Below the pieces are notes generated by a model. The model saw only the letters and a list, made by a program, of their open reading frames with translations, did not search any database and had not been told where the DNA came from. A program made the position numbers and the translations under genes. 31,169 nucleotides of DNA from a virus: the IMG/VR virus record IMGVR_UViG_3300033144_007188, positions 1-31,169 of that record. The stretch is one strand, 5' to 3'. This document shows positions 3,589-31,051 of this stretch, piece by piece; positions within the stretch are counted from its first letter, which is position 1; every line of letters starts with the position of its first letter.

Positions 3589-3786
3589 TCAAGATTGATC
3601 ATGGAATCCGACGAGATCGCAGATCCCGATTCCGCCGTCTTCACAGTGATGAAGTGCACCCTTGTGTTCGGACAGCTCAATCGTGCATTGCACTACAGCT
3701 TTTTGCGTATGGGGAGCCCCACATCGTTTGCAGCGAAAATCCAATACGATGTGAATCTGCTCTTCTTGCTTCTTCTCGTCTGTCAT
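3589..3786 (-). CDS. Small Zn-ribbon-like protein (65 aa)
   Basis: A 65-aa protein starting MTDEKKQEEQ. The ATG overlaps the stop of the glycosyltransferase gene (ATGA), so translation is probably coupled. CKRCGAPH near residue 19 and HHC...GIGIC near residues 46-56 look like two zinc-ligand knuckles. It is the last gene of the glycan island; function unknown. Confidence 0.55.
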   Translation of the reverse strand: MTDEKKQEEQIHIVLDFRCKRCGAPHTQKAVVQCTIELSEHKGALHHCEDGGIGICDLVGFHDQS

Positions 3787-4574
3787 CGCTTGTCTTCTTG
3801 GTATGTTGTTTTCGTATGCCGCAAGCGGTAAAGGCCAGGAAGATCCACGCCAACAACCAAACCAAGCTCGGCACAGTATCGACGATACACCACATCGTCG
3901 TAGAAGTTCTTGAACAGTTCCTCAGTCGTACGATGCCACTTCGGGATTGTGTTCAAGTAACCATGCTTGCGAGCAAAATCTCCACGAACGATCTGAACAC
4001 CACCGATGGCTGTCCTGTATCTCTTTGGTACAAATTCTGTTGGATCTGTATCTATCAATTGAAGATCATCCAAATCGACAGATGCAGTTCGTTTGTCACC
4101 AGTGACCCAATCTTGATGTATCTTGATCTCTCGCGGATAAATCATCGAAGCGTTTTCTGGCCATGGCATCGAGATTAACTGATCGAGTATCCCATCTCGG
4201 AACACTTGATCAACATCGGCGAACCAAACATAATCGGCCGAAGTGTGCAAAGCAGCATGGTTGCGGCCAATGCAGCGTCGGCCGATCTCGTTTCTTTTCA
4301 TGCGAATGATCTTGCATGGTATATGTAACATCGCCCATGCGAGAGCCTTTCTTGCATGCAGATCAAATGTTTCTTCTTCTTGATCTTCCCACACACACAC
4401 TGACAAGCAGACTTTGCACTTCTTTGGTTTGTGCAATACCAAACTGCTTGCTTGATATGCAAGCATGGCTGCATACTGAGGAAGTTCAGCAGCATAGCAG
4501 TGCGAGACTATTTCAACACGAAGAAGATGTTCCTTTTGCCTTGTTGCCGACATTGATGCAGACGATGCACTCAT
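3783..4574 (-). CDS. Glycosyltransferase, GT-A / GT2-like (263 aa)
   Basis: Probable nucleotide-sugar-dependent glycosyltransferase. The start is the ATG at 4574 (MSASSASMSA), with AGGAG 8 bases upstream; the extension to 4619 overlaps the kdsB-like gene without a site. Residues 20-60 fit a Rossmann-type N-terminal half. ADYVWFADVDQVF near residue 113-125 gives the DxD metal/nucleotide site (DVD at 120-122). GGVQIVRGDFARKHGYLN further on resembles the acceptor-side GG-x-x-x-x-R motif of GT2 and galactosyltransferase families. It lies directly downstream of the CMP-Kdo synthetase-like gene, so it may use or extend a Kdo-containing glycan. Confidence 0.75.
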   Translation of the reverse strand: MSASSASMSATRQKEHLLRVEIVSHCYAAELPQYAAMLAYQASSLVLHKPKKCKVCLSVCVWEDQEEETFDLHARKALAWAMLHIPCKIIRMKRNEIGRRCIGRNHAALHTSADYVWFADVDQVFRDGILDQLISMPWPENASMIYPREIKIHQDWVTGDKRTASVDLDDLQLIDTDPTEFVPKRYRTAIGGVQIVRGDFARKHGYLNTIPKWHRTTEELFKNFYDDVVYRRYCAELGLVVGVDLPGLYRLRHTKTTYQEDKR

Positions 4575-4585
4575 GCATAAATCTC

Positions 4586-5329
4586 CTAATTTTCTTTCAA
4601 CGCTTTGAACTTTGCCCAATCATCCGGTGTGTTGATTGACAAAGGATGTTGTTGAATCTCAATGGGCATCAATGTTATGTCATTCTCAAGCCACGTCAAT
4701 TGCTCCAATGACTCAAGCTTGGCCATGTGGCTCGGTCTCAATACACTTGCCACTCGAAGAAGAAACAACGAAAAAGAATATAGCCCAACATGATACCCAG
4801 CCCCTGGCAATGGAATACGAGAAAACCAATAACATCTTCCTCGTGACCAAACAGTCTTGACCACGTTTTGATCTTTCATGGCAGCCACATCACATGCTTT
4901 ACCTTGATCCTTGCATACCAAAGTCCCGATGGATGATAGACGCAATGCCATCAGCTTGTTCGCATCCGATGGTTCTATCATCGGTTCGTCCACTTGCCAA
5001 TTCACCACGACTTGACATTGCTCTTGGACTTCAGGTTTTAGTTTGGCTACTACTTCAGCAACTCTCGATGTCCCGTTTGAATGGTTTCCATCCGCAAGCA
5101 TCCAAGTCATCCCAACCTCTTCGCAATAACGTGCGATCTTGTTATCTCCAGTAGCTACCACCACATGATCAGCTTCTGTTTTTTTTGCCTGCTCGTAGGT
5201 CCATTGCACAAGTGGTTTGCCAGCTGCTTCTAGCATAGGTTTACCTGGCAAGCGGTCGCTTGCCATGCGAGCAGGTATCACCACTATCTTTCTTCTATAC
5301 AACTTTGAGCGAACTTGTTTGATTGTCAT
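4586..5329 (-). CDS. kdsB: CMP-Kdo synthetase-like cytidylyltransferase
   Basis: Resembles 3-deoxy-manno-octulosonate cytidylyltransferase, which activates Kdo with CTP in the cytoplasm. At 247 aa it has the usual family length. Family signatures appear in order: VVIPARMASDRLPGKP (16-31), SNGTSRVAEV (84-93), NWQVDEP (110-116), HVGLYSF (180-186), ESLEQL (206-211) and SINTPDDW (231-238). Two conserved positions differ: QGDEP is QVDEP, and the VDTPED aspartate that helps hold metal in bacterial KdsB appears as Asn (INTPDD). It may therefore be altered in activity or use a related ulosonic acid. The start follows the sulfotransferase stop as TGAGATG. Confidence 0.85.
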   Translation of the reverse strand: MTIKQVRSKLYRRKIVVIPARMASDRLPGKPMLEAAGKPLVQWTYEQAKKTEADHVVVATGDNKIARYCEEVGMTWMLADGNHSNGTSRVAEVVAKLKPEVQEQCQVVVNWQVDEPMIEPSDANKLMALRLSSIGTLVCKDQGKACDVAAMKDQNVVKTVWSRGRCYWFSRIPLPGAGYHVGLYSFSLFLLRVASVLRPSHMAKLESLEQLTWLENDITLMPIEIQQHPLSINTPDDWAKFKALKEN

Positions 5330-8498: not shown

Positions 8499-9401
8499 TC
8501 AAACTTCCATCTCTTCAAACCATCTGTTTCCTAACCATCCATTCTTGTTGGACGGAGCCCATTCTCGACAACTCCCTATGTTCTCTACCAAGCACTGCTG
8601 CCACATTGGCCACCACCGCCGATAAGCATGTCCCCTATGCTTGGCCGGCCTTACATTGGAATCACCGTGATAATGCCAAATGATTATCTCGTCTTTGCTG
8701 ACTCCTTCTGGGGCCCACTTTGGATTGCATGAACAGTTGAATCGCCCATCTGGATAGATATACATTTGGCCAAGTCGTAAGAACTTGGGTTGCAACACAT
8801 GCAAGACAGCTTCATCTGCAATGAATACATGTCGAGCTTCCCAAGTCCACTCTTCCCAAGTCTTCAGCGTGGGGCTTTTAGGAGAACAACAGAACACTCC
8901 TCCGTTCAAACTCGGCCATGGCACTTGAAGCACCTGTTTCACATGCCCTTGATCAATCTTCGGTAGCCCCAGTAATCGTTTGATTCTGTTTTGCACTATA
9001 CCACCGGCTGTTGTCCAAGATGAAAATCTTGTGGCGGCAAATGTATACTGTTGGGCCGATTGAAACAGAGGAGCCAAGTCCCCATGGACGGACGTATCGG
9101 CATCCAGATACAAGACTGAATCAATTTCCGTCAAGCTTCGCACCAGTCTAAGCTTTGAAATAAATTGGTCATTTTTTCCCTGCCTTCGTTCATCTCGTCT
9201 AGCACGATAGGCCGGCTCATGCGGAATTGCCTCAATTCCTAGACGATCATCGGTCGACATAACCTTGACCAACTCAAATGATTCGGGCCATGCATACACC
9301 CGAATCATTCCTTTCCAATACTCGCGAAGTGTTCTCAAGCTAACAGCTAAGTATGGAAGATGGGCTTGTCCGCTCATAAGATAAACTATAGATTCTTGCA
9401 T
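8499..9401 (-). CDS. Glycosyltransferase, GT8/GT-A-like (300 aa)
   Basis: Probable retaining glycosyltransferase. SVLYLDADTSVHGDL (95-109) contains the DxD motif (D100, D102) in the GT8-like context Y-L-D-A-D. WPSLNGGVFCCSP is the acceptor-side N-x-G segment, and the region around ADEAVLHVL fits the later catalytic part. A late WHYHGDSNVRPAKH resembles the C-terminal HxxGxxKPW-type motif. The ATG lies inside the 3' end of the homing endonuclease gene, in the sequence AAGGAGAAATGC, so spacing from the ribosome binding site is unusually short. Confidence 0.8.
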   Translation of the reverse strand: MQESIVYLMSGQAHLPYLAVSLRTLREYWKGMIRVYAWPESFELVKVMSTDDRLGIEAIPHEPAYRARRDERRQGKNDQFISKLRLVRSLTEIDSVLYLDADTSVHGDLAPLFQSAQQYTFAATRFSSWTTAGGIVQNRIKRLLGLPKIDQGHVKQVLQVPWPSLNGGVFCCSPKSPTLKTWEEWTWEARHVFIADEAVLHVLQPKFLRLGQMYIYPDGRFNCSCNPKWAPEGVSKDEIIIWHYHGDSNVRPAKHRGHAYRRWWPMWQQCLVENIGSCREWAPSNKNGWLGNRWFEEMEV

Positions 9402-10138: not shown

Positions 10139-10843
10139 TCACGCTCCATGTTCTTTTCTCCATTCTTCAACCATCAGCGGGCAGCAGCAATACTCTGGCT
10201 TGAACAACTTTGGACGAACGTAGATTGCATCAACTTGTCCCGAAGAAGTTCTCTGCGTATGTATGTACTGAAGCAGAAAGCCATGATCCAACAACCACCG
10301 ATTCACCTCACACGGATCTGGCCAACCATAGCGGGGAGGTTTACCCGTTAACTCTACATTCACAACGTCTACATACTGAATAGAATCCTCTCCACCGATC
10401 AACACATCCAATTCAGAGCCTTCACAATCGAGCCAAAGTAATGTTTGATTTATAGCCTTTCCACAAAAGCAGTTGTCCAATGTATCCATTTCGACTTCTG
10501 CTTGCTTCAAATCATCTGTTCCAGAAGCCGAAGCATAAACAGATGCCCCATCCATGTGCCCAGACTTCCAAAATAGACCAACAGTTTGCTTGCATCGACC
10601 CAATGCTTTGTTGTGCAACGTTCCTGGATACCCAGGATGTTCTTGTATCTGCTTAAAGATTTCAGGGTGTGGTTCAAAACCAATCAACCTAGCTTTCGGC
10701 CAAGCTTCCTTGAACACTGCAACTTCTTGTCCATGCTGTCCAACACCAGCTTGTATGATCATTGTCGGAAACCAATCAAGCACATCGGCAACATTGTACA
10801 ATGCCACGCCGCTGCGACGAAGAAGAGTAGTCTTGCTTCTCAT
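10139..10843 (-). CDS. FkbM-family methyltransferase (234 aa)
   Basis: SAM-dependent O-methyltransferase of the FkbM type. MIIQAGVGQHGQEVAVF (28-44) is motif I; ARLIGFEPHPEIF (51-63) carries the F-E-P typical of this family; LLWLDCEGSELDVLIGG matches the D-x-E-G-x-E-x-x-x-L signature; NVELT follows. The ATG at 10843 overlaps the previous stop (ATGA) and has GGGAGG 7 bases upstream; the 39-residue upstream extension is not used. Likely methylates a sugar in the island's glycan. Confidence 0.8.
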   Translation of the reverse strand: MRSKTTLLRRSGVALYNVADVLDWFPTMIIQAGVGQHGQEVAVFKEAWPKARLIGFEPHPEIFKQIQEHPGYPGTLHNKALGRCKQTVGLFWKSGHMDGASVYASASGTDDLKQAEVEMDTLDNCFCGKAINQTLLWLDCEGSELDVLIGGEDSIQYVDVVNVELTGKPPRYGWPDPCEVNRWLLDHGFLLQYIHTQRTSSGQVDAIYVRPKLFKPEYCCCPLMVEEWRKEHGA

Positions 10844-11643
10844 CGCATCGCCTCCCTTGCATATTTCTTCACGTTGCCCCATGTTGACCAATGGGAGAAC
10901 CCCCGGGACTTCATGTTTGTTCTCTCCACCCTCTTGCCACCTCTCGTGGCCATGTACCAAAGGAAGCCATCTTGGCTGGGCACTGGCAGTCGAAGATTGT
11001 TGTTGGTTTGCCGCGTGGTCAATGCCATCCTAAACGTCCAAGCAGTTTCAAAAAATCCGCACCACGAGATGATGCGATTGTGCGTCAGCCGTGTCCAATC
11101 CGGCTTTGGTACCAAATTCAAAGGCCGCATTCCGATGAACTCCTTGGGCATCTTCTTCAAATTTTTCTCCACCCAATAATCCAACTGCAACATCTGATCC
11201 GGTGGTTTTGTAAACGACCAACGATGAGCAATGATCACAGGCTTATCATCGAACCACGTGGGATCAATCCAATCATCCATGCCGGTGGCCACAACGTCTG
11301 TATCCAACTTTAACCAGTACGGAGTTGATACCGATATAGAGGGAGCATAAACAAAACCGCTCAGCATCATGGCTCGATGTGGATTGTGAAACTTGTCCCC
11401 TTTCTCTTCCTTTGTTTTATCCCATTCCAATCCTGGTATTGGCCAAGGAACGGTTGCCAGATCAGGATGATTGACAACCATTCTTACCTGCTCTTCGCTC
11501 GTCGTAGCTTCCTCATAGAATACGACCATCGGATGTTCCAGCAGCGATGGCTTGTGCCGCTTCCATGTAGGCCATGTCACTGCCAGCTGCTGAAGATGAT
11601 AAGCGTCTACACCGACGACCAACGTATAGTCAGGAACACTCAT
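10840..11643 (-). CDS. Glycosyltransferase-like, GT-A fold (267 aa)
   Basis: YTLVVGVDAYHLQQLAVTWP at the N-terminus is the first beta-alpha unit of a GT-A fold. YWLKLDTDVVATG (109-121) supplies a DxD (DTD, 114-116). A Trp/His-rich C-terminal half (SRGFSHWSTWG) follows. No exact CAZy family can be named from sequence reading. GGAGG lies 9 bases before the ATG, which overlaps the cupin stop (ATGA). Confidence 0.65.
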   Translation of the reverse strand: MSVPDYTLVVGVDAYHLQQLAVTWPTWKRHKPSLLEHPMVVFYEEATTSEEQVRMVVNHPDLATVPWPIPGLEWDKTKEEKGDKFHNPHRAMMLSGFVYAPSISVSTPYWLKLDTDVVATGMDDWIDPTWFDDKPVIIAHRWSFTKPPDQMLQLDYWVEKNLKKMPKEFIGMRPLNLVPKPDWTRLTHNRIISWCGFFETAWTFRMALTTRQTNNNLRLPVPSQDGFLWYMATRGGKRVERTNMKSRGFSHWSTWGNVKKYAREAMR

Positions 11644-12035
11644 GCCATCTTCCCTCCGATGTCTGCTCGTTCAATATCCCCAGCTTCCAACACGGTCCAG
11701 TAAAACTCCAATGCTTCTCCAGCCTCCAAGATTTCAAATTGATGCCAAACGCCTGGAGGTATGTCTGTGATCTGTCCAGCAGTTATTATCGTCTCATCTT
11801 TCAATTCTTCAGCTGAAGGAAATTCTTGTGGATGAAAGATGACAATTGACAAGCGGCCACTCAGCACGACAAATCTGTTCCACTTGACATGATGCTTATG
11901 TCTCGAAGAACGATAACCAACCTTGTATCGTATCCGATGCGATTCTATCCCATTGTGGGCAAAGACCAGTTGTGTATCACCCCATATCTTTCCCTGCCGA
12001 GGACCAACCGAGGGGATATCAAATGTCGGAAGCAT
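11640..12035 (-). CDS. Cupin-domain protein, sugar-modifying type (131 aa)
   Basis: Single-domain cupin. YRSSRHKHHVKWNRFVVLSG has the cupin-1 metal motif (H-x-H-H spacing, with N where E is common), and IPPGVWHQFEIL supplies the second motif with P-G-x-x-H. This resembles the C-terminal domain of mannose-6-phosphate isomerase/GMP enzymes and WxcM-like or WbuC-like cupins of polysaccharide loci. It probably isomerises or binds a sugar intermediate. AGGA lies 8 bases before the ATG at 12035; the longer frame overlaps the GNAT gene further. Confidence 0.7.
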   Translation of the reverse strand: MLPTFDIPSVGPRQGKIWGDTQLVFAHNGIESHRIRYKVGYRSSRHKHHVKWNRFVVLSGRLSIVIFHPQEFPSAEELKDETIITAGQITDIPPGVWHQFEILEAGEALEFYWTVLEAGDIERADIGGKMA

Positions 12036-12594
12036 TGGTAAGTCCTTTGAACGAAAGACGATTGCGAGGCACAAAAGGTTTGCGGTACACCATTGTATAC
12101 ACGTCTACCGGTTTTAGCGAACCGGACTTTGGATCATTACATTGAGTGTGAATGGTTTCTTCTGCGAAGAAACCGCAAGAGCGAAAGAATAACTGAACTT
12201 CAACATTGGCTTCATGTATTGAAACACATATCTTCTTTCGCCGTTTGGACCGAACCATTTTCTCCTTGAGATCTTCGAGCAAAGCTGTCCCAAATCCTTG
12301 TCTTTGGCAACCGGGATTTACAGCCATATTCCAAAGCTCGAACGTGTCTTCCCCTCTGCGATAGTAGAACACATATCCGACTGTCTCAATTTTTCTTCGC
12401 GTCTTGCTACGTGAGAAACAAGCCAATGGTTTTTCGACAAGTTCCAATGAATACCCGAACAATTCATGAGTATGAAACATCTTCTTATATTCTTTGGGCG
12501 ACCATGGCTTGCCAAAGCAACGTTGCCACACCTCCATAATTCTGGCCAAGTTCTCCTTATCCACTACTACAATTTGAGTTTCGACAGCACTCAT
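12019..12594 (-). CDS. GNAT-family N-acetyltransferase (191 aa)
   Basis: FELWNMAVNPGCQRQGFGTA (about 85-104) contains the acetyl-CoA-binding motif A with Q/R-x-x-G-x-G (RQGFGT). EANVEVQLFFRSCGFFAEE gives motif B (Y/F-x-x-x-G-F). AAAGGAG lies 8 bases upstream of the ATG. In a glycan locus the likely substrate is an amino sugar, as with PseH- or WecD-type enzymes, although protein N-terminal acetylation (RimI-like) cannot be excluded. Confidence 0.8.
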   Translation of the reverse strand: MSAVETQIVVVDKENLARIMEVWQRCFGKPWSPKEYKKMFHTHELFGYSLELVEKPLACFSRSKTRRKIETVGYVFYYRRGEDTFELWNMAVNPGCQRQGFGTALLEDLKEKMVRSKRRKKICVSIHEANVEVQLFFRSCGFFAEETIHTQCNDPKSGSLKPVDVYTMVYRKPFVPRNRLSFKGLTNASDI

Positions 12595-12648: not shown

Positions 12649-13674
12649 TTACTTCTTCTCATACCAACCGCTGAGATCTGGTTCATCCTCTACCAAACCT
12701 TGGCACTCATCCAAAGCCTTTTCAAACGGAACAAAAGGGAATGCTCGCAGAGATGATTCTTGAAAGCAATTGAAGAACTCTATTCCAAACCGACCAAAGA
12801 CATTCTTCTGCTGCATCTCGCACAACCAATCATTGGCTACGGAATACTGAGGATTATCCCAAAGAACAGGTACCTTCTTTTTCCTTGGACGCTTGTGCTC
12901 TATCGCTTGAGGAAAAGCATATCCATAATCAGAAGCCATCCGAAAATCACAGCCAATTAAAAACACCCGCTTGGCTCCCAAGTAACGAAGCAAACGCATG
13001 GCGAGAAACATCGTGTTCACCGTCTTCGGTTGTCCAGTTCGCTTTACGCCTATGTTTTGATTGCCCCAACAGGCTCCTGTAGAGAGGAAAAATTGATCGT
13101 CCGGGGTCAACCACGATTCACGACGAAATCCCCACACGTTGGGACAATCAGATACAGTTACATTCATGTACTCAAACTTGTCGGGTCCCACCTTTCGTTT
13201 CAGCCTGGCTCTGCCTCCATTCATCTTCGGAGTTGGAATGAATTTCATGATCTGAGGATCAAACCAGATAGATTGAGAGAATTTCAACGGTGGGTCAGAA
13301 CACACAAACGCTTGCGGTCGAAACTTCGAATGACCGGCCATGTTGTTCACAGCCATCGTCCATATTCCACGCTTGTTCAGCTGTTCCAATGGCAACAGAT
13401 TGGCAGAAGGTCCAGAGCAGGCCAAGAATGCAGATCGTCCAGCTAGCAGGCCTCGCAAAGAATCCACTCGTTTTCTTCTACTGTCAATTATCTCCAAGCA
13501 ATCAACAGAGTATCGTGTTTCTTCTTGCGTCAAATGTTTTTTGCATTCTGAGCATCCCGGAACTGTTCGATTGCCAACCCCTTTAACAACGTGACAATCA
13601 AGAAGACTACATTGATATGTCGGCTGACCACACTTTTTTGTACCCAACGTATCCCCTAAGTATATACAATTCAT
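12649..13674 (-). CDS. GT42/DUF115-like glycan protein with Cys-rich N-terminus (341 aa)
   Basis: N-terminal 45 residues carry paired cysteines (CIYLGDTLGTKKCG, CSLLDCH, CSECKKH) that probably bind zinc. Similar Cys modules precede glycosyltransferases in Planctomycetes, as far as I recall. FLACSGPSANLLPLEQLNKR (about 82-101) is the G-P-S nucleotide-binding loop of CstII-like sialyltransferases (GT42) and DUF115/MAF proteins; VNNMAGH and FLIGCDFRMASDYGY follow as expected. It may transfer a CMP-activated sugar made by the NeuA- or KdsB-like enzymes. I start at the ATG at 13674, 9 bases inside a second in-frame ATG at 13683, for better spacing from AGGA. Confidence 0.65.
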   Translation of the reverse strand: MNCIYLGDTLGTKKCGQPTYQCSLLDCHVVKGVGNRTVPGCSECKKHLTQEETRYSVDCLEIIDSRRKRVDSLRGLLAGRSAFLACSGPSANLLPLEQLNKRGIWTMAVNNMAGHSKFRPQAFVCSDPPLKFSQSIWFDPQIMKFIPTPKMNGGRARLKRKVGPDKFEYMNVTVSDCPNVWGFRRESWLTPDDQFFLSTGACWGNQNIGVKRTGQPKTVNTMFLAMRLLRYLGAKRVFLIGCDFRMASDYGYAFPQAIEHKRPRKKKVPVLWDNPQYSVANDWLCEMQQKNVFGRFGIEFFNCFQESSLRAFPFVPFEKALDECQGLVEDEPDLSGWYEKK

Positions 13675-13702
13675 GCCACTCATTTCCTGTTATGATACCT
13701 GC

Positions 13703-14260
13703 TTATGTTTGATTCATTCTGATTTTGGCATCTTGGTTAGAAGCCTTGTTCAACCACGGGAAAGGTTGATCTGGTATACACATCTCGAAGAATTTGCAAA
13801 GTGAAGCCCAGGCTGTTGACGACATATCATGGTGTACTGTTACATCAATCTCAAGCAATCGGTCAGCCGGAATTGTGTCTCTCACTTGCTCATGGTGAAG
13901 TTCCCAAATTCTTCTAAGGTCAAGTGAATCCCTTTGAGTGCACCCACCATATACTTTCTCATGATAGTATCGGTCATAAAAAAATTCCGATTGCCAAAAT
14001 CCAGGGATTCGTTGCAGACTTTTTACCCAAGCAATATAAGGACGCGTGTTCAAGATAAAACGAGAATTGGGAAACATGCGATTCAACTCACGCCAATGAG
14101 CCGTGATCATTACATCTCCAGCAGCATTGTGTTTTTCCAATTGATCCCAATGACGTGGATTGTGTATCGGATTCCATCCAAGAACATGAAGGGCTTCGCA
14201 AAGACTGGCCGATCCACAGCGAGGGAAACCAACAATCCAGACGAATGGTTTAACAAGCAT
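13703..14260 (-). CDS. Sulfotransferase, Sulfotransfer_4-like (185 aa)
   Basis: FVWIVGFPRCGSASLCEALH (6-25) is the PAPS 5'-phosphosulfate loop in the G-x-P-R-x-G-x-x-S-L form used by the Sulfotransfer_4 group. RFILNTRPYIAWVKSLQ (67-83) is the 3'-phosphate motif (T-R-x-x-x-x-W-x-x-S). Length is modest for the family. The ATG at 14260 overlaps the NeuA-like stop by 11 bases; the extension to 14296 lies wholly inside that gene and is unlikely. Second of three sulfotransferases in the window. Confidence 0.75.
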   Translation of the reverse strand: MLVKPFVWIVGFPRCGSASLCEALHVLGWNPIHNPRHWDQLEKHNAAGDVMITAHWRELNRMFPNSRFILNTRPYIAWVKSLQRIPGFWQSEFFYDRYYHEKVYGGCTQRDSLDLRRIWELHHEQVRDTIPADRLLEIDVTVHHDMSSTAWASLCKFFEMCIPDQPFPWLNKASNQDAKIRMNQT

Positions 14261-14918
14261 TTTGTTTCTCTGCAAATATGTGTTGAGCATACTCAAAATC
14301 AGCTAGAGTATCTATATCTATTAAGTCTTCATGAGATACATGCCATAAAGGTTTTGCCCCAACATGATAACCAGTTCGTTTAATAGCACCACGGGTGAGA
14401 ATTGAGAGTGTAAATGGAAACGTGTAGAGTTGCGGCAGGTGCTGGCTTGGCGTATGCCATTCGCCCCACTGCCAACCAAACGGGCGAAAATGCTCGTCAA
14501 GCAAATATAACTTGAGCGGATGCACGACGCATAGCGAATCGTGCCCCTCCGCGATCGCAGCAGGCCATTTCTCAATGACAGTCCCGTGTTCTGTGAATAG
14601 CGGATCACAGACCTGTGACCAAATCAGATCATCATCGCCAGGCAGCTGGGCGCACGTGTCCCGAATCCATCTGCCAAATGATACATCATTGCGACATCGT
14701 GCGGCATCGCAGAGTATCGGCGTCACGCCCCAGCGTTGGGTGAGACGCTCCAATCGTTCAGCGATCTCGCAACTGACGTGGATATCGGACACATCGAGCC
14801 CCGCGTTCAGTAGGGCTTCGATATTGATATCGACCAGCGATGATTGATTGTGAAACGGCCGCCAGTTCTTGTCCGGCACCCGTGTACTACTTGCTTTTGC
14901 GGGGATGATTGCTCGCAC
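14250..14918 (-). CDS. CMP-nonulosonate-type cytidylyltransferase (NeuA-like, 222 aa)
   Basis: Probable CTP-dependent activation of a nonulosonic acid such as sialic, pseudaminic or legionaminic acid. RAIIPAKASSTRVPDKN (2-18) is the CTP_transf_3 signature (I-I-P-A-x-x-x-S-x-R-x-x-x-K-N). DDLIWSQVCDPLFTE holds the Q-x-x-D/S-P segment and HEDLIDIDTLADFEYAQ the C-terminal D-I-D-T metal site. I prefer the GTG at 14918 because GGAG lies 7 bases upstream; an ATG at 14942 has no site. Two GT42/DUF115-like genes flank this gene and its neighbour, which fits a CMP-sugar route. Confidence 0.75.
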   Translation of the reverse strand: MRAIIPAKASSTRVPDKNWRPFHNQSSLVDINIEALLNAGLDVSDIHVSCEIAERLERLTQRWGVTPILCDAARCRNDVSFGRWIRDTCAQLPGDDDLIWSQVCDPLFTEHGTVIEKWPAAIAEGHDSLCVVHPLKLYLLDEHFRPFGWQWGEWHTPSQHLPQLYTFPFTLSILTRGAIKRTGYHVGAKPLWHVSHEDLIDIDTLADFEYAQHIFAEKQNAC

Positions 14919-15471
14919 TGTACCACTCCGTTTTCGTGCCATAGAGTTCTAGCAACAAGCCGGCTAGCGTCCTCTCGATGCGAGGCCAGATGGAAAGATC
15001 AACAGGCAGTTTTGGTTTGCCGGCCAGTCCAGGGGCATATCCCCGCCCTCCACCACCAGTGCCAATGATTCGCAACCGTTTGTATCCAATTTTGGCCAAC
15101 CAACTCATGGCCGCCGTCACGGTGTGGTGATGCGTAACGCCCCCGCTCCTGAGTCGCAAGCGTAGATTCTTTGCCATGCATGAACTGCCAGCATACCGCA
15201 TTCTTTTGTGAGTAGGAAAATCATCTGGCAGTTCTTCAGGGCCGATCAGTTTGGACGGGGACACAAAGCAATCAACCCGTCCCCAAAGTGGCCGCATCTT
15301 TTTGACAAAGCCAGCATGACAGAAGAATGCAAACCGGATGGGCTGATTCTTCCACAACAGAAGCCCAGCTTCGTTGATAATCGCGACGTCGCATCCAGGA
15401 CGTGCGTCGATCCATTTCTGAGCGTGGACGGCAGACGGACCCTTGGCGACAATCGTAATGACTCGGCTCAT
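14887..15471 (-). CDS. DUF115/GT42-like small protein (194 aa)
   Basis: VITIVAKGPSAVHAQKWID (4-22) is a G-P-S loop followed by a helix, and DVAIINEAGLLLW the next strand, as in DUF115 and GT42 proteins. LRIIGTGGGGRGYAPGLAG resembles the later glycine-rich nucleotide loop. At 194 aa it is shorter than CstII-like enzymes. The ATG at 15471 overlaps the stop of the 37-aa microprotein (ATGA), which settles the start; the GTG extension to 15507 is not needed. A CMP-sugar-binding transferase or a binding protein are both possible. Confidence 0.6.
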   Translation of the reverse strand: MSRVITIVAKGPSAVHAQKWIDARPGCDVAIINEAGLLLWKNQPIRFAFFCHAGFVKKMRPLWGRVDCFVSPSKLIGPEELPDDFPTHKRMRYAGSSCMAKNLRLRLRSGGVTHHHTVTAAMSWLAKIGYKRLRIIGTGGGGRGYAPGLAGKPKLPVDLSIWPRIERTLAGLLLELYGTKTEWYSASNHPRKSK

Positions 15472-21409: not shown

Positions 21410-24136
21410 TTACTTGCCATAGATACCTATTCGAGGTATTGATTTCGACAACGTATTGATACTATTATCAACAACTCCAAGAAGTTTGTTTGCTAACGCT
21501 GTATTCTTGGCTGTCTTTTGTGCAGAATCATCCGACTTCATGAATGCATCTTGCAGAGACTTTCCATAATCGGCAAATCCAAAACGACCCCCTCCCATTG
21601 CCGGCTCTGTTGTCGCCTGATCCCTTTGTGCCATGAGCCTGCGTCGTGCCAACCACAGTCGCTTCATGGCTTCTTCTGGGGCCAAACCTCCGGGGAGGCC
21701 AGCTTGTCCGCGTTTCGTCAAATGCATTATGTCAGACAAGAAACCATGCATCTTTTCCATGGGCGTTTCGATTTCTTGTCTTATGTTTGCTGCCAAGCTT
21801 TCAAAATGCTGTTCTTGGTTCCTTCTCTTTTGCATCTGCTCTCGCATCTGTTCTAACCGAGCATTTTTGCGTTTAGTTTGCATCTCTCCCATCGGGGTCT
21901 TATCCCACTCCAACTGAAGAAATCGTCTTGCTGCTCCTTCAAGTTCGGGAAACTGCCTTGTAATAATAGATACCTGTTGAGACAAGAAACTGAATTCGCG
22001 TTGGATTGAGGCAGGATCCAATTCCTGTATTCCTGCAAACAACTCCCTTCTGAAATCCATCGTCACCTTGGCCATCTCTGCTGCTCTTCTTCTCATGGCT
22101 CCAGTGTTTGCTTTATCTCCGCTGGGAATACCAAGAGATTTGGTAGAATTATCCCGCAACGCAAACAATTCTTTTTGCGTCACTATCATCTCTCTGTCTA
22201 ACCTCACCATTTCCTGCGACCAATGGCTTTGGACTCTGAAAAACTCGCGTGACTTCTTCTTGGCTTCATCATACTGTCTTCCCAGATCAGCCAGATGGAA
22301 TTTCAGCGTAGTCTCTCTCACTCGATTTTGGCGAGCAGCTACTATGGCCAATGCTTGCCCCATCCCCACAAGTTTGCCTGTGGTTCGATCTATGGTCACA
22401 CCGAGAGGACCATACATGGACTCCAGCTCTTCTACAATCCCGCGAGCTTTTCCCATCTGATCATTGCTGAGCTTGCCACCTATAGCCAAGTTCCGCAAAT
22501 CTGTTGCCAACTTGCTTGCTGTGGCTGCTTGATTTTTCCCCCGCTCAACGAACTCCCCAGATATCTTATTCCCTTCTTCTATGATCTTGTTCACTTTTCT
22601 CCACTCAAGTGCCACTACACCGGCGACCGCTGCCAAACCTACCAGCATGGCGATTATAGGATGAGCAATAACCGCTCCCATGGCAATGGCAAGTCCATCC
22701 ATGGCAAATGAAACAGCTACTATCGAATGAATCATGACAGTGTCCATGAAAACTGCCACGGCCATCAAAGCAACCTTCCATTTTCCCATAACCGCCATGG
22801 ACACTCCTATAACACCACCCAAAGCTCCATAGACTGCACTCAACTTCACTACAGCAAATTGCATAGTAACGAGAGCCACCGTTAACAACCCAGCTATTCT
22901 TATCACTTTCCACTGAGCAGACCGAAATTCCTGAAATGGTAAATAATCTAAAGCACCACCCAGCTTGTAAACCCATGAAATAAATTTTGCAAACACTGCT
23001 GAACCTGCCCTGACATCATCGAGTAAAGGCTCAATCAATTTCAAAACTGGAGTCAACCCTGCAATGGCCACTTCACCCAGAACAGATCGCACCTTCTTCA
23101 GCATGCCCCAAAACGTATCCAGCTTTGCTTCGGAAACTTCAGCAGAACGACCCAAGTCTTCCAGCAATCCCACTTGCGTTTCTTCTACGAAAGTGGTAGT
23201 GGCCAACAAGTCAAGCACGCCAAGAATTTCCCTGGCTCGCATGCCAAACAATGCTGCTGCGGCAGCTCCCTTTTTTATGGGATCTGTTGGCATAGCCAAA
23301 GCGATGGCTTTGAACAAACCAACCAGATCCAAAACCCCAGACTCCTTGCCGACGAAAGCTTCCACTTGGATGTTCATCGCTCGCAAAGCATCTTCAGCTT
23401 CCTTCGGCTGAGCGGCCAATCGGAACAAGGCCATCGAAAGAGCTGTACCAGCCCTGCTCATCTCTGTTCCCGCACGCCCCATCCCGGTAAGGAGGGCTAC
23501 AGTATCCCGAAAACTGACGTTCATCGTAGTGGTGATTGACCCCAATGACTGCAACCCTTGAGCCAGATCCCTTGCAGTGATCTGAGCTCTGGATTGGGCG
23601 GAAGACAAGAAGTCAGCAATCTTACCAGTGTCAGCAGCCTCCATCTTGTACTTCCGCATGTTGTCGACCACGATCTTGGCCGACTCAGCCAGTTCCAAAT
23701 TTGCAGACGATGCCAAGTTGAGAACACCGGGCACTGCCGCTATAGATTCTTGGGCACTCAATCCACCAAGCACCATCCAATCCAAAGCTTCAGCTGATTG
23801 TCTGGCAGTGAATTGCGTCGTTGCTCCCAACTCTCGAGCAGTCAAGTTGAGCATTTGAAATGCTTTACTGCCTTCTTCTCCCAGCAGCCGAGCATTTGCT
23901 CGGACATCCACCATCTTCCGCTCGAACCCGACGACTTCCTGAGAGGCCGCGGCGAATATACCTGCAAAACCAGCCACTCCTCCCATCACCATGGCCGTCG
24001 ACAAAGCTCGTCCCATGGCCATGCCAATCTTGGAAGTCTGGGCAGTGACTGGCCCTTTCAATGCAGCAAAGTCCGAAGACACCCGAGAAGAGTCTGCTCG
24101 AACTGCGACGTAGGCTCTGGCTAATTCTAATCCCAC
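21410..24136 (-). CDS. Tail tape measure protein (908 aa)
   Basis: Sets tail length and passes through the tail tube. The N-terminal third matches the TP901-type tape measure core: SQEVVGFERKMVDVRANARL (about 65-84), then LGATTQFTARQSAEALDWMV and LTGMGRAGTEMSRAGTALSM. The central part has several hydrophobic segments (VALMAVAVFMDTVMIHSIVA and others) typical of tape measures, and the C-terminal part is long helices rich in Gln/Glu/Lys/Arg. By the rough rule of 0.15 nm per residue, a tail near 135 nm is expected. The start is GTG at 24136 with AGGAGG 8 bases upstream; a nearer ATG stops after five codons. Confidence 0.9.
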   Translation of the reverse strand: MGLELARAYVAVRADSSRVSSDFAALKGPVTAQTSKIGMAMGRALSTAMVMGGVAGFAGIFAAASQEVVGFERKMVDVRANARLLGEEGSKAFQMLNLTARELGATTQFTARQSAEALDWMVLGGLSAQESIAAVPGVLNLASSANLELAESAKIVVDNMRKYKMEAADTGKIADFLSSAQSRAQITARDLAQGLQSLGSITTTMNVSFRDTVALLTGMGRAGTEMSRAGTALSMALFRLAAQPKEAEDALRAMNIQVEAFVGKESGVLDLVGLFKAIALAMPTDPIKKGAAAAALFGMRAREILGVLDLLATTTFVEETQVGLLEDLGRSAEVSEAKLDTFWGMLKKVRSVLGEVAIAGLTPVLKLIEPLLDDVRAGSAVFAKFISWVYKLGGALDYLPFQEFRSAQWKVIRIAGLLTVALVTMQFAVVKLSAVYGALGGVIGVSMAVMGKWKVALMAVAVFMDTVMIHSIVAVSFAMDGLAIAMGAVIAHPIIAMLVGLAAVAGVVALEWRKVNKIIEEGNKISGEFVERGKNQAATASKLATDLRNLAIGGKLSNDQMGKARGIVEELESMYGPLGVTIDRTTGKLVGMGQALAIVAARQNRVRETTLKFHLADLGRQYDEAKKKSREFFRVQSHWSQEMVRLDREMIVTQKELFALRDNSTKSLGIPSGDKANTGAMRRRAAEMAKVTMDFRRELFAGIQELDPASIQREFSFLSQQVSIITRQFPELEGAARRFLQLEWDKTPMGEMQTKRKNARLEQMREQMQKRRNQEQHFESLAANIRQEIETPMEKMHGFLSDIMHLTKRGQAGLPGGLAPEEAMKRLWLARRRLMAQRDQATTEPAMGGGRFGFADYGKSLQDAFMKSDDSAQKTAKNTALANKLLGVVDNSINTLSKSIPRIGIYGK

Positions 24137-24897: not shown

Positions 24898-24898
24898 C

Positions 24899-25974
24899 TC
24901 ATCTCCTTCTCTTTCTACCTGGCTTCTTGGCCGAGGCATCTTCCAATGCCTTCTTGGCCTGCTCTTTCTCCATCAACTGCCTGGCCAACGACTTTCCTTC
25001 AACGCGTGCCTTGATCAGTTGGCCATCCGGAGTTCTCCCTTTGATCATCCCATCTTCATCTGCCTTTACTTCAAATGGTCCCATCGACTGTGTTCTTCCA
25101 CCCAACTTCATCAAGCCTCTGTCACACAATCGAAACCAGATTTGATCTGACGTCCATTGAGCAATGTCATTTGGCTGGAATCCACCTCCACCATCCCATG
25201 GATTGTCGCAAAGCAGTCGAAGCATCCATGCATTTACCTTTCCCATGCCCACCAACAGCCCGCCGGTCTCCACGATATCTTTTCCGTCTTCTGCTTCTCC
25301 TTCTGACAGACGGTTGAGCTCGGCGGGCCCTATCCATTTCCCAAGTCAGGTGTAGTTATGTCTTCCACCATCCTCGACGCTTCGAAGATGGATGCAAGGG
25401 GCCACTGTCCCACATCCTCTCTGGTCAATTCCGGATGCTCTTTCTTCAAAGAACTGTGGATGAATGACACCTTGCCTTGAAAACAGCCAGTGATCCACCA
25501 CTGATCATATCTCACCTTGGCTTGGATCGGTTTCTGCTTGGTCATCTCCTCCACTTCGGCAGATGTGACCTGCTCCTGGTCCAAAGCAACAGCCAGCAAG
25601 ACAAGGACTCTCCCATCATCTGGCTCTGTTTTTTCATCACCAGTTCCTACATCCTTCAGAAATCCTTTTGCCCATGCTCTCGCTGCAGGCGTTACGGGAA
25701 GCTTGGAAGTGTCATAAGCCATCTTTTTCGGGATGTCATCCAATGACAACTGGCTCACTTCTTCAAACTTCTTTGCCAGCAACAAATCTGCCATATCTCC
25801 AAGCAAGTCTTTGTTGCTGCTGTATGTCTGAAGAACTTGCCGACGATAGAATTGAAGAGCCTCTTGCTCCAAGTCGCAGAGCTGCTGCACCACGACTGGA
25901 CGCAGCTTGTACTCTTTTCCTCCTATCTTGAAATTCCTTCCCGCTGCCATCGCTCTGGCTTCTTTGTCACTCAT
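24899..25974 (-). CDS. Tail assembly chaperone, frameshift product (GT-like, about 358 aa)
   Basis: By analogy with lambda G/GT, ribosomes slipping -1 at GGGAAAT (25336-25342) join the first 213 residues of the shorter chaperone to a 145-residue extension read to 24899. The extension begins WIGPAELNRLSEGEAEDGK in the -1 frame, has no independent ribosome binding site, and ends in a basic tail (KKPGRKRRR). It lies just before the tape measure gene, the conserved position for these chaperones. A GTG at 25273 in the extension is unlikely to be a true start. Confidence 0.85.
25330..25974 (-). CDS. Tail assembly chaperone (G-like, 214 aa)
   Basis: Zero-frame product of the chaperone pair. It starts MSDKEARAMAAGRNFKIGGK and has a short beta-rich N-terminus (IGGKEYKLRPVV) followed by helices, as in lambda gpG-like proteins. 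The stop TAG lies one codon after the slippery heptamer. The ATG overlaps the upstream sulfotransferase stop (ATGA). It probably binds the tape measure protein and recruits tail tube subunits. Confidence 0.8.
   Translation of the reverse strand: MSDKEARAMAAGRNFKIGGKEYKLRPVVVQQLCDLEQEALQFYRRQVLQTYSSNKDLLGDMADLLLAKKFEEVSQLSLDDIPKKMAYDTSKLPVTPAARAWAKGFLKDVGTGDEKTEPDDGRVLVLLAVALDQEQVTSAEVEEMTKQKPIQAKVRYDQWWITGCFQGKVSFIHSSLKKEHPELTREDVGQWPLASIFEASRMVEDITTPDLGNG
25336..25342 (-). other. Programmed -1 frameshift slippery site (GGGAAAT)
   Basis: On the minus strand, in zero frame, G GGA AAT fits X XXY YYZ. It is almost identical to the GGGAAAG of lambda G/GT. TAG follows one codon later, and the -1 frame stays open for 145 codons. 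Confidence 0.9.
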
Positions 25975-26699
25975 GTCGGTTCTCCTGTGTCGAAGTTTCT
26001 GTAAACTCGTTTCTGAAAAGTGTCTTCACCATAAAATCGACGAAGCAAAACTCGCTCACTCCTTTCTATTCGTTTCCTTTGTTCCTCGGTTACTTCAATG
26101 GGTGGAGCCTTTATACTCCGTATTTTATTCCTTGCATGCCTGATCTCTTTTATCTGCTCTCGTCTCGTGTTCCACAAATCCCCATAGCCAAGCTTCGTTA
26201 GTACATCTTCTGTATCTTGCTCAAGCGTTTCAGTACGTCCAATGAAATAACAAAACTCCCCCTTAGGCGGGCCAACGAAACGCTCGAACCATCTCGTGGC
26301 CCAGCCAGGTTCCTCCTCGATCATTTCATCCAACCACTCACTGAAGTCTGGTTTCCAACGAAGGATGGCTTCGCTAATTGCGATAACCTGCTTGTTACCT
26401 TTGGTCAACCGATGCATCTCGTCGGGTCTGTTCTTCCATGATCGAGTTGTGAATCTCCACACTGAGATGTAATAATCAACAGGATGTCGTACGAAGGCAA
26501 ATACCAAACCCACTCGACCCCAAAGCTCCGGACGGATGTGTGGAATGAGCGTATGCTTTTTCGGGCGATATGGCTCTCCAACCCGTCCCCACTTGTCCAT
26601 CGGGATACCACCTCGATACATTGCTTCTTTTATCCATGTTCCCCCAGTACGAGGAACATGAAGAAACAGAGCTTTCTTCTCAGGCAGATAGTAAGACAT
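25971..26699 (-). CDS. Sulfotransferase family protein (242 aa)
   Basis: ALFLHVPRTGGTWIKEAMYR (10-29) is the PAPS 5'-phosphosulfate loop (P-R-T-G-G-T), and VFAFVRHPVDYYISVWRF (66-83) the 3'-phosphate motif (R-H-P-x-x-x-x-x-S). The C-terminus is basic and helical. It sits among tail genes rather than in the main glycan island, between a methyltransferase and the chaperone pair, with TAATG and ATGA junctions. Probably sulfates a sugar or a Tyr/Ser on a virion component. Confidence 0.8.
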   Translation of the reverse strand: MSYYLPEKKALFLHVPRTGGTWIKEAMYRGGIPMDKWGRVGEPYRPKKHTLIPHIRPELWGRVGLVFAFVRHPVDYYISVWRFTTRSWKNRPDEMHRLTKGNKQVIAISEAILRWKPDFSEWLDEMIEEEPGWATRWFERFVGPPKGEFCYFIGRTETLEQDTEDVLTKLGYGDLWNTRREQIKEIRHARNKIRSIKAPPIEVTEEQRKRIERSERVLLRRFYGEDTFQKRVYRNFDTGEPT

Positions 26700-28107: not shown

Positions 28108-28356
28108 CTAGAGATTCTCCCCCATCATAGGGAGCTGTATGGCCTTAACCAACTTCTGCGTCAGCGAACCTTCGGGGCAGCGGGAGGGAATAAAGCCCAA
28201 GACATGGGCAGTCTCGACTGAGACTTTTCGGAGGGGAGAGTTCGAGGCAGGTTCTCGTCGGGTTCGCTCGCTTCTACACGTTTCACACGGACACGAGGGC
28301 CAGTGATGGATCTCCATCTTCATGACCGTTAACAACTCGTCGGCTGGATCGTTCAT
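28108..28356 (-). CDS. Small protein with Cys motif (82 aa)
   Basis: The start is the ATG at 28356 (MNDPADELLTVMKMEIHHWP), with AGGAG 9 bases upstream. It overlaps the radical SAM 3' end by 74 bases in another frame. PSCPCETCRSERTRR has a C-x-C-x-x-C pattern with an Arg-rich tail, possibly a small metal-binding protein. The radical SAM neighbour makes a substrate or accessory peptide conceivable, but nothing in the sequence proves it. Confidence 0.45.
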   Translation of the reverse strand: MNDPADELLTVMKMEIHHWPSCPCETCRSERTRREPASNSPLRKVSVETAHVLGFIPSRCPEGSLTQKLVKAIQLPMMGENL

Positions 28357-29128
28357 TGGTTTGTTCTCCTGGTTGTAAAAACTCTTTCGGCAGACGTTCC
28401 CAGAAATAACGAGGGTGAGGAGGATCATCTTGCCAACGCTCTATTGCTTCTTGAAAGGTCTTGGTAGTTTCCGGTATCTTGCCGGCCTTGACCTTGCGTG
28501 TGATTACATGACGTTCTCTTTTCGTCAAGCTGTAAAGACAATGCTGACAGACAGAAGGACGACCCATCATTACAGGTAATGGTTCATAGGTGTCTTCGTC
28601 AAGCATCGCTCCCAATATGCCAGCTACACCGCAAGAGGTAAATCCAAAGCAGTCAAACCACCGACCGCAATAGATCTGCTGGACGCATTGCTGAGTGAAT
28701 CCAAACTTCGGTTCTATGCCGAGATCAGCCGGCGAGACGTTGAATGGAGTGAACAGTTCGGTTTTCTGTTGACTCGATACAGGTACAACAGAAAACCGAC
28801 CGGGAACCCCACGCAGCCTTGGAATGATTCCATTCGAATAGATCCTGAACCATCCACTTCTTGGGGCCCACGTATCGTTTACCGCGTGAAGCAACTCCTT
28901 CAAGTTCGGATGAAGCATCGGTTCTCCACCCGTAACGCGAAGCTTCCCAATCTTGATCCCATAGTGCTTCAACAAACGAGAAGCAACTCGGATCTCTTCT
29001 ACGGTGACATCCGTATTCACCTTCCAACGGACGACATCCAAATGCTGTACACACCACTTACAAGACGCGTTGCAGCGATAACTTATCGCAATCTGATACG
29101 GAATTGGATTAGCAGTAAAGTCGATCAT
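28283..29128 (-). CDS. Radical SAM protein (281 aa)
   Basis: SYRCNASCKWC (16-26) is the canonical C-x3-C-x2-C [4Fe-4S] motif (Cys 19, 23, 26) and RVTGGEPMLHPNL (64-76) the SAM-binding G-G-E-P. The C-terminal third has further Cys (CVQQIYCGRWFDCFGFTSCG, later CQHC) that may hold an auxiliary cluster as in SPASM-type enzymes. The protein is shorter than most SPASM enzymes. Its ATG overlaps the homing endonuclease stop (ATGA), and a perfect 10-base palindrome (29131-29140) lies just upstream. Its substrate is unknown; a sugar or a virion protein are both possible. Confidence 0.85.
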   Translation of the reverse strand: MIDFTANPIPYQIAISYRCNASCKWCVQHLDVVRWKVNTDVTVEEIRVASRLLKHYGIKIGKLRVTGGEPMLHPNLKELLHAVNDTWAPRSGWFRIYSNGIIPRLRGVPGRFSVVPVSSQQKTELFTPFNVSPADLGIEPKFGFTQQCVQQIYCGRWFDCFGFTSCGVAGILGAMLDEDTYEPLPVMMGRPSVCQHCLYSLTKRERHVITRKVKAGKIPETTKTFQEAIERWQDDPPHPRYFWERLPKEFLQPGEQTNERSSRRVVNGHEDGDPSLALVSV

Positions 29129-29766
29129 GCGACAGCTGTCTCTATCTCCAACCTTTCGATACTCTGCTTCAACCTAGTGATTCTAATTTTCCGTATCGTT
29201 TCCGGTGAACGTTTTCTACCTTTGTTCACCTTGCCAAGCTTTCGTCTATGTTCAGCAGAAAAAATCTTGCCTTTATGAGACAAACTCATCTTCTGCTTCG
29301 TTTCTTCAGAATGCTTCTTTCCTAATTGCGATTGCCGATTTTTTTCGATCGTTTCCTTCGTATGCTTCCATCCCACACGTCTTCTTCCTCGATTCCACTG
29401 ATTGCTAATCATATCTGGACGAGGCTTGCCTAATTTGGATTGCCTGACTTTTTCTTTTGTCTCATCTGAAAGTCTACCCCCTTCACCTCCTTCCGTTAGA
29501 TTATACCCATTCGGAGCTACCGTTCTTAGAAAATCAATTGTCATCATCTCCAACTCATCCAATTCTTCCGGATCATCGGTCTCAAACAACACCATACCAG
29601 AAAAATTGTGGCTTCCATATTTCCTTAAAGCACAATGAAAGGCTGTCTTAGAATCCTTCCTCGCTGCACTTTTATGCTCCCGCTTTCGTTTCCTATACGA
29701 ATGAATCGTTTTTCCAACATACAGCTTACTATTCATCTTATTACGTATGAGATATACACATCCCAC
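29125..29766 (-). CDS. GIY-YIG homing endonuclease with NUMOD3 repeats (213 aa)
   Basis: The GTG start at 29766 (VGCVYLIRNKMNSKLYVGKT) has GAGGAG 6 bases upstream; the frame is open to 30006 but that part lies in the tail tube gene. GIY-YIG pair, Arg/Lys block (YRKRKREHK), Glu (LDELEMMTID) and GYNLTEGGEGG define the nuclease domain. The rest is NUMOD3-type repeats (LSDETKEKVRQSKLGK, HSEETKQKMSLSHKGK, FSAEHRRKLGKVNKGR). It is inserted next to the start of the radical SAM gene, whose first codons exist on both sides of it. Confidence 0.92.
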   Translation of the reverse strand: MGCVYLIRNKMNSKLYVGKTIHSYRKRKREHKSAARKDSKTAFHCALRKYGSHNFSGMVLFETDDPEELDELEMMTIDFLRTVAPNGYNLTEGGEGGRLSDETKEKVRQSKLGKPRPDMISNQWNRGRRRVGWKHTKETIEKNRQSQLGKKHSEETKQKMSLSHKGKIFSAEHRRKLGKVNKGRKRSPETIRKIRITRLKQSIERLEIETAVA

Positions 29767-29777
29767 TGCAAACTCCT

Positions 29778-29834
29778 CTATAACAAGCTGCAAGCAATCT
29801 GCATAGCAATTGGATTGGCAGTAAAGTCTATCAT
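29778..29834 (-). pseudogene. Remnant 5' end of a radical SAM gene (18 codons)
   Basis: A short frame overlapping the tail tube stop (TAATG) reads MIDFTANPIAMQIACSLL and stops just before the endonuclease ribosome binding site. Its first nine residues are identical to those of the intact radical SAM protein (MIDFTANPI), with two synonymous base differences, and QIA follows in both. It is best read as the leftover start of an allele split when the endonuclease entered. Confidence 0.8.
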
Positions 29835-30268
29835 TATGGCAACGTCTTGACCGGGGCGAGGGCCTCTCCAGGATAGTAGAAAATACCATCTGCTCCCCAA
29901 CCACTCGTCCAGCCAATGACTTCCGCGGTGTCAATGTTGACCACCAACTGAAAGTCGTCGCACATGGCTCTTGGATAGTTATAGTAAAGCAGCGGGGCAA
30001 CGGCATTCAGGAACAGCGTAGAGTCAACGATGTCCTCTGGTTGAAATATATCAAACACTTCGCTGGTTGTGTCATACTTCCCTTCTGCCGAGAACGTCGA
30101 GTCCTTTCTGCCCGGAGCTCGATTGGTAAACCCTGCCGAATCCGAATCACCCCACTCGGACTTGGTGGCAAGGGTCTTCGTCACCTGCCACTGGGTTGCT
30201 CGGGCAACCAAGTCTGCTCCAATCATGAACTTCCCATTGCGACCTGTTTTGGTGTTTTCGCTACTCAC
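29834..30268 (-). CDS. Major tail tube protein (144 aa)
   Basis: Probable tail tube subunit. The start is GTG at 30268 with GAGGAG 8 bases upstream. The text KFMIGADLVARATQWQVTKT, then a W-G-D-S-D-S-A-G-F-T loop, a GRKDSTFSAEGKYD strand and late VVNIDTAEVIGWTSGWG follow the pattern of short siphophage tail tube proteins. It lies upstream of the chaperone and tape measure genes as expected, although a seven-gene insertion separates them. Confidence 0.75.
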   Translation of the reverse strand: MSSENTKTGRNGKFMIGADLVARATQWQVTKTLATKSEWGDSDSAGFTNRAPGRKDSTFSAEGKYDTTSEVFDIFQPEDIVDSTLFLNAVAPLLYYNYPRAMCDDFQLVVNIDTAEVIGWTSGWGADGIFYYPGEALAPVKTLP

Positions 30269-30301: not shown

Positions 30302-31051
30302 TTACACACTTTGACTTGACCATGATGAGCTGCTTTCCGAACTCTGAGAGCTGCTACTGCTCGTAACAGAAGAACTACTCGTAGCAGACGAGCTACTGGA
30401 CTTGGACGACCATGAACTACTTGACATACTACTTGGCGAATTGCTTGAGCTGCTCGTTGCCGAACTGCTGGAGCTGCTCGACACTTCATCATCACTGCGG
30501 CCCAAGATGTAGATTGAATAGGAAACGTTTCCGCCATTCGCGGTCAACTTGAGCTGATGACTCACCCCGTCCTCAACATCAAAACCGCGTTCGTCAAGCT
30601 GCTGCTTGATCAACACCCCCTGTCCATACAATGCTCCATCGGTTGCCACCGTATGGGTACCGATGGGCGTCCACCCATTGGGAGCACCTGGCTCGATCTC
30701 CAAGGCACCGTCAGCCCCTGCTTCATTCTCATTGACGATGACGAGCTGAACAATTTCCTCGAATACAATTGCTTGTCCCAACCCATCCAATCCAGCTCCA
30801 GCCCCGATGTCTACACCAGCCATGTCGTATAAATCCAGCGTTTCGGAAGCACCGCCTACGATGGCACGATCCTTCGACTGCCATGACCGATTGGCTTGAT
30901 TGTTTCCAATCCCATTCGTTATGGCCGTACCACTTTTCGTGAATGAAAAGGCTGGGTGATTGACACTGGGACCAGTGTTATCATCAAGTACATTTTGCAA
31001 CGTCCCGCTCGACTTGAACGAGACCGAGATTGAACTCATCTGCCTTACCAT
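30302..31051 (-). CDS. Virion-type protein with Ser-rich C-terminal tail (249 aa)
   Basis: AGGAG lies 7 bases before the ATG. Residues 1-190 are a beta-rich domain (FSFTKSGTAITNGIGNNQAN, ASETLDLYDMAG) of the kind found in minor structural proteins near tail tube genes. Residues about 191-249 consist of Ser with scattered Ala, Thr, Asn, Trp, Gln, Glu and Lys, in two imperfect units that each contain S-x-A-T-S and end SSSSWSS. The tail is disordered and could be an O-glycosylation platform for the glycan enzymes encoded nearby, or a spacer displayed on the virion. Confidence 0.7.
   Translation of the reverse strand: MVRQMSSISVSFKSSGTLQNVLDDNTGPSVNHPAFSFTKSGTAITNGIGNNQANRSWQSKDRAIVGGASETLDLYDMAGVDIGAGAGLDGLGQAIVFEEIVQLVIVNENEAGADGALEIEPGAPNGWTPIGTHTVATDGALYGQGVLIKQQLDERGFDVEDGVSHQLKLTANGGNVSYSIYILGRSDDEVSSSSSSSATSSSSNSPSSMSSSSWSSKSSSSSATSSSSVTSSSSSQSSESSSSWSSQSV

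Follow-up and report, generated by a model that had tools for sequence, protein, structure and literature searches.

The stretch analysed here, referred to as the window, comprises all 31,169 nucleotides of the virus record IMGVR_UViG_3300033144_007188, a 31-kb virus contig that is probably a fragment of a larger genome. Part of it is a tail operon, marked by a tape measure gene, in which the following features are found:

30302..31051, minus strand: A5 (our label), a 249-aa jelly-roll protein with a Ser-rich C-terminal tail (an ORF with relatives encoded in 33 IMG/VR viral contigs; beta-sandwich in the AlphaFold model)
30302..30481, minus strand: Ser-rich tail of A5, residues 191-249 and the stop codon (43/59 Ser, mixed codons; tail kept in 67 distinct homologues)
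29834..30268, minus strand: presumed major tail (tube) protein, the next gene downstream of A5 (assigned by position; kept in 29/33 related loci)
28283..29128, minus strand: radical SAM protein within the tail operon (PF04055, E 5e-7; 13 related loci)
25971..26699, minus strand: sulfotransferase within the tail operon (PF03567, E 6e-9; 17 related loci)
21410..24136, minus strand: tape measure protein (PHROG tape measure families, E down to 2e-49)

The translation of A5 begins with MVRQMSSISV and ends with WSSQSV. An earlier note on this DNA had described the C-terminal 60 or so residues as almost entirely serine, and this description is borne out by the composition of residues 191-249, where the 16 positions not occupied by Ser hold Thr, Ala, Trp, Gln, Val and a few others. 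The mean Ser content of the window ORFs is 5.6% (binomial P about 5e-41 for the tail), and the richest 59-residue stretch in any other window ORF checked contains 9 Ser. Both Ser codon families are used, with 24 AGY and 19 TCN codons. The division of the tail into two imperfect units, as proposed in the same note, is weakly true: two blocks can be recognized, each with an ATSSSS motif and ending in SSSSWSS, but TRF reports short 18- and 24-bp arrays only, and the non-Ser residues recur at an offset of 25 just twice.

The body of A5 (residues 1-190) obtained no Pfam or PHROG name. Its beta-sandwich, modelled with a mean pLDDT of 89, matches generic viral jelly-rolls only among solved structures in a PDB fold search, and uncharacterised Caudovirales proteins in a viral structure library (best TM 0.65/0.77). 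In relatives, the gene order runs from a minor-head-like gene through a small FnIII-like protein with a Ser tail, a protease (PF04586) and the capsid gene (PF05065, E 1.9e-16) to connectors, a presumed terminator, A5, the presumed tail tube, chaperone-like genes and the tape measure. We infer the name tail tube for 29834..30268, because the protein has no family match, and Fn, the label used here for the small Ser-tailed protein encoded between the minor-head-like gene and the protease and capsid genes, is likewise ours, as no family search named it. Gene order and fold together suggest that A5 is a virion protein of the head-tail region, and on this basis the virion-type assignment made previously is retained, A5 being presumed structural. 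In one relative, the minor-head-like protein encoded upstream of the capsid genes (L006:37-1461) carries an ADP-ribosyltransferase domain (PF03496, E 1e-10).

The phage group considered below consists of uncultured phages and is defined by one marker, the capsid protein. All complete A5 homologues found in capsid-positive loci end in serines, and the seemingly tailless A5 genes of the group run off a contig end or are cut within the tail. The only complete A5 relatives without Ser, in L033-L035, are 33-34% identical and lie in another context, adjoining a terminase. Distinct Ser tails number 67 on A5 and 48 on the unrelated, head-side Fn. Those of A5 range in length from about 11 to over 300 residues, the shortest (L131) having a Ser run of 9. 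Some members encode additional Ser-rich proteins beyond A5 and Fn. A second A5 paralogue is encoded in five loci (L043 and L045, around 3602-5089; also L016, L018 and L019); it is 889 aa long, and nearly 500 of its residues make up a Ser-rich region. Furthermore, in L029, L154 and L060 the Ser-rich segments are split by, or placed after, a common small domain, and Ser stretches can therefore also serve as linkers. A terminal SSSSWS docking motif was considered and rejected: Trp occurs within the last 14 residues in just 16/67 A5 and 20/48 Fn tails, and is therefore not required near the end.

Searches of INPHARED found no isolated relatives with useful similarity for A5, the presumed tail-tube protein or A4, a candidate glycosyltransferase described below, and the capsid protein had Bacillus phage Silence as its sole match there, at 17% coverage. 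A search of genome_contigs with A5 for a host or prophage found none. The same search with the capsid protein returned one distant MAG contig (Porticoccaceae, 36%), which has neither an A5 gene nor A4, and no Ser tail in the 21 kb fetched. In this distant capsid relative, L157, whose 3.6-Mb MAG serves as the outgroup, the genes for the presumed terminator and tube directly follow one another and A5 does not separate them; otherwise its capsid and tail gene order is related to that of the group. A literature search on Ser-rich phage tails gave nothing relevant.

Among 118 related tails, two neighbouring Ser codons are the same in 14.9% of cases, compared with 23% expected from codon usage, and Ser is therefore kept at the protein level. 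This observation bears directly on the idea that slippage at DNA repeats produced the tail as a neutral by-product. Short imperfect arrays are present in the A5 tail, and tail lengths differ among relatives, as slippage would produce, but identical neighbouring Ser codons are under-represented, near-identical tails differ mostly by synonymous changes, and the presence of a tail is kept over about 50% divergence. The codon pairs and the conservation rule slippage out as the origin of the tail, and we leave it next to no probability.

The tails of A5 and Fn from one genome also resemble each other in their non-Ser residues, as if sharing a dialect. Trimer similarity of these residues is 0.68 within genomes versus 0.44 between genomes (p<=5e-5 in a permutation test that has no tree in its model), and the sharing persists with 21 divergent representatives of <56% identity. 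DNA strings shared by the two tails are short, with a mean of 16.2 nt (median 14.5) within genomes and a mean of 12.1 nt between genomes, and recent gene conversion therefore explains little. In L049/L127 the dialect is Cys-bearing, with SSCSS-rich tails on two A5 paralogues and on the Fn of the same contig.

Apart from the tail operon, the window carries a set of genes with similarity to enzymes of glycan metabolism:

12652..13683, minus strand: A4 (our label), candidate tail glycosyltransferase, GT42/GT29 sialyltransferase-like and weakly MptE/Maf-like (fold and weak profile matches; 21/22 tail-group contigs of at least 36 kb)
11640..12074, minus strand: cupin protein of the cassette, WbuC-like (TIGR04366, E 1.5e-5, and Cupin_2; 36 related loci)
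10840..11643, minus strand: conserved cassette protein, presumed glycosyltransferase (tblastn match in 41 related loci; function assigned from context)
10139..10960, minus strand: FkbM-type methyltransferase of the cassette (PF05050, E 6e-12; 23 related loci)
8499..9401, minus strand: GT8-like glycosyltransferase of the cassette (PF01501, E 1e-4, slightly below cut-off; 35 related loci)
4586..5329, minus strand: CMP-Kdo synthetase-like (KdsB-like) cytidylyltransferase (NF003952, E 1e-52, below the curated cut-off; PF02348, E 3e-31)
3783..4619, minus strand: GT2-like glycosyltransferase of the cassette (PF00535, E 8e-4, below cut-off; 24 related loci)
14250..14942, minus strand: second cytidylyltransferase, weakly PseF-like (PF02348, E 7e-5; PseF model, E 3.5e-7, far below cut-off)
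13703..14296, minus strand: accessory sulfotransferase, Sulfotransfer_4 (PF17784, E 2e-27; only 2 related loci)

The cupin, presumed glycosyltransferase, FkbM methyltransferase, GT8-like, GT2-like and KdsB-like genes are common to the group downstream of A4. The KdsB-like protein scores 178.7 bits against an NCBIfam model that requires 193, so that 4586..5329 is similar to KdsB in sequence while its function is not assured; the 10840..11643 protein has no Pfam or NCBIfam match. Adjoining the glycan genes is a 542-aa ORF (15578-17206) with a weak phosphoribosyltransferase match and relatives in only two other loci. Three GIY-YIG endonuclease ORFs (9386-9991, 24169-24939 and 29125-29805), two of them with NUMOD3, interrupt the glycan and tail regions. 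The last of these, a GIY-YIG/NUMOD3 ORF, is bracketed by a 41-bp near-repeat (88%) at 29088-29128 and 29794-29834, and the start of the radical SAM gene appears to be duplicated around this homing-endonuclease-like insertion.

The best PDB fold matches of the A4 model are CstII, Cst-I and a mammalian sialyltransferase. CstII, the top match, has a probability of 1.00, but an E-value of 2.4e-3 and a TM of 0.37-0.49. The best PDB profile match is sialyltransferase 9c08 (E 0.077, a non-significant sequence similarity to GT42), with which A4 has a GxDF...YAF stretch in common within a 27-residue alignment. Seven of 10 members show weak similarity to PF01973 (Maf/MptE-like), the best E-value being 0.0052, and the window protein reaches 12.5 bits, below the curated cut-off of 34.6. 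The N-terminal region of A4 is its own and is partly modelled with low confidence. These separate lines, each weak, nevertheless agree, and are consistent with a sialyltransferase- or Maf-like enzyme. A single in-frame stop lies within the A4 match in five contigs (TAG in G003, G006 and G029; TGA in G031 and G033), and could be a sequence error, gene decay or recoding.

The co-occurrence of Ser tails and glycosyltransferases across related phages, proposed earlier as a check on the link between the two, was found: A4 occurs in all but one of the 22 tail-group contigs that reach 36 kb (21/22, counting a few near-duplicates), the exception being truncated 4.4 kb beyond its capsid gene, and in 0 of 15 control records (14 contigs from phages that are unrelated or A5-tailless, plus the whole 3.6-Mb MAG holding L157), all positives falling within one clade. 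The contrary pattern, with Ser tails equally common where glycan genes are lacking, was sought and did not emerge. CTP_transf_3 occurs in 14/21 tail-group contigs versus 1/9 controls, and FkbM in 14/21 versus 0/9; in about a third of tail-bearing contigs no CMP-sugar synthetase was detected. In a reciprocal scan of 57 loci with a KdsB-like gene and no A4, 3 had Ser-rich stretches and 54 had none. KdsB-like genes are thus widespread in phages without Ser tails, so that the tails go with A4 rather than with KdsB, and the KdsB-like gene was discarded as a marker of Ser tails. Outside the clade, Ser-rich stretches in 9/18 A4-bearing records and 2/14 controls make no clear difference. Two large contigs, G059 (172 kb) and G062 (73 kb), carry distant A4 relatives (30-35% identity) and no Ser tail, and the enzyme family can therefore serve another substrate. 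Tail and A4 are both carried by almost every member of a single clade, so that their co-occurrence is not an independent test; the association may stem from common descent, and a single clade's history cannot by itself tell an acceptor from a companion feature.

Shared lineage is also what would link tail and cassette if the glycan enzymes acted on the host surface, in receptor masking or superinfection exclusion, or on phage DNA, an explanation that we consider improbable. There is precedent for phage glycosyltransferases that alter host serotype or act on phage DNA (PMC12619734), and the 54 KdsB-like loci without Ser tails fit such roles. However, the glycan genes are co-oriented with the tail operon and lie partly inside it, Ser-rich stretches are rare in KdsB loci without A4, and the outgroup and control phages are without both tail and A4. 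Far less probable still is that the tail accepts another modification, such as phosphorylation or direct sulfation. Ser is a phosphorylation acceptor and the window has two sulfotransferase genes, but no kinase was among the families matched in the window ORFs scanned, and of the sulfotransferases, the Sulfotransfer_4 gene is not conserved with the tails and the other occurs in 17 loci only.

The explanation that we favor, with a probability of roughly 50%, is that these phages O-glycosylate disordered Ser tails on their own virion proteins, using a sugar-donor and transferase cassette that they encode. The Ser tail would be an acceptor arm, disordered and C-terminal, borne by a jelly-roll protein in the head-tail region of the virion. 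In most members, a CMP-Kdo or related CMP-nonulosonate synthetase would supply the donor, and during late gene expression the sialyltransferase/Maf-like A4 and its cassette would glycosylate serines in the tail of A5 and in that of one or more further Ser-tailed virion proteins, with GT8-like and GT2-like transferases, the FkbM methyltransferase, cupin and sulfotransferase as further enzymes of the scheme. The outcome would be a particle with a mucin-like glycan brush. What the sequences themselves show is the tail and its conservation on two non-homologous proteins, together with the common dialect and the conserved enzyme set; from these we infer that the enzymes act on the tail, which sugar and linkage are involved, and where in the particle the tails lie. 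The interpretation first offered for this locus is supported as far as the conserved tail, the presumed structural proteins and a conserved glycan gene set with a CMP-sugar-type transferase candidate are concerned, and a kinship with adhesins is not supported.

The main rival holds that the Ser tails carry no modification and act as disordered arms, either polar brushes or linkers, aiding solubility, subunit spacing or domain tethering, while the glycan genes have another target. In its favor, poly-Ser is flexible and hydrophilic by nature, the Ser stretches of L029 and L154 connect two folded domains, tail length varies as widely as a spacer might, and distant A4 relatives are found without Ser tails. 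But a plain linker needs no near-pure Ser in place of Gly/Ser/Pro/Asn mixtures, nor a genome-specific dialect common to two unrelated genes, and the constant presence of A4 would be left unexplained. On balance we regard unmodified arms as somewhat unlikely, though the strongest of the competing accounts. O-glycosylation of the tails can also be taken further, to mucin-like virions in which several unrelated structural proteins bear poly-Ser arms in a genome-specific dialect, read by an A4 that attaches a CMP-Kdo-type sugar directly to Ser; this extension we advance tentatively, as a possibility. If it is true, the dialect would be an enzyme-acceptor code co-evolving across genes. To our knowledge, glycosylation of phage particle proteins is known in only a few phages. 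Given a whole clade with dedicated Ser acceptor tails on at least two virion proteins and a linked cassette, virion glycosylation would become predictable from sequence, and such a clade would offer a compact Ser-O-glycosylation system for reconstitution and raise the question of whether tail dialect and transferase co-evolve.

Among the closest known systems, the serine-rich repeat adhesins of Gram-positive bacteria, invoked by the earlier note, resemble A5 in having a long Ser-rich disordered region with expected O-glycosylation. Unlike these surface proteins, A5 is a presumed virion protein whose Ser region is short by comparison and C-terminal. The A5 translation has no accessory-Sec signal peptide and no LPXTG-type wall anchor, and the window, a fragment, has no GtfA/GtfB O-GlcNAc transferase family among the ORFs scanned. 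Ser content is the sole defining feature in common, and the comparison is reduced to an analogy. The GT42 enzymes CstI and CstII provide the best fold matches of A4 and the shared sequence stretch noted above; they differ in that sequence similarity to A4 is non-significant, and in acting on lipooligosaccharide rather than protein.

The Maf flagellin glycosyltransferases (PF01973) combine a CstII-like central domain with the direct attachment of Neu5Ac and Kdo, besides Pse/Leg, to Ser/Thr of flagellin, a self-assembling filament protein (PMC11339370). They use CMP-nonulosonate donors, and the window has CMP-sugar synthetase-like genes, whereas A4 falls below the family cut-off and has a distinct N-terminal region. 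A further case is that of the mycobacteriophages Che8 and Rita, whose capsid and tail-tube subunits are reported to bear C-terminal glycans (Freeman et al. 2023, as cited in PMC12619734; also PMC11256854). Phage-encoded glycosyltransferases are common to both cases, by similarity only in the window, as would be C-terminal glycans on one subunit of the head and one of the tail, which for the window's phage are proposed from sequence. The acceptors in those phages are the major capsid and tail-tube subunits, whereas the candidate acceptors here are long tails of almost pure Ser, carried by a jelly-roll protein and by a small protein of the head side, accompanied by a CMP-sugar/sialyltransferase-like enzyme set.
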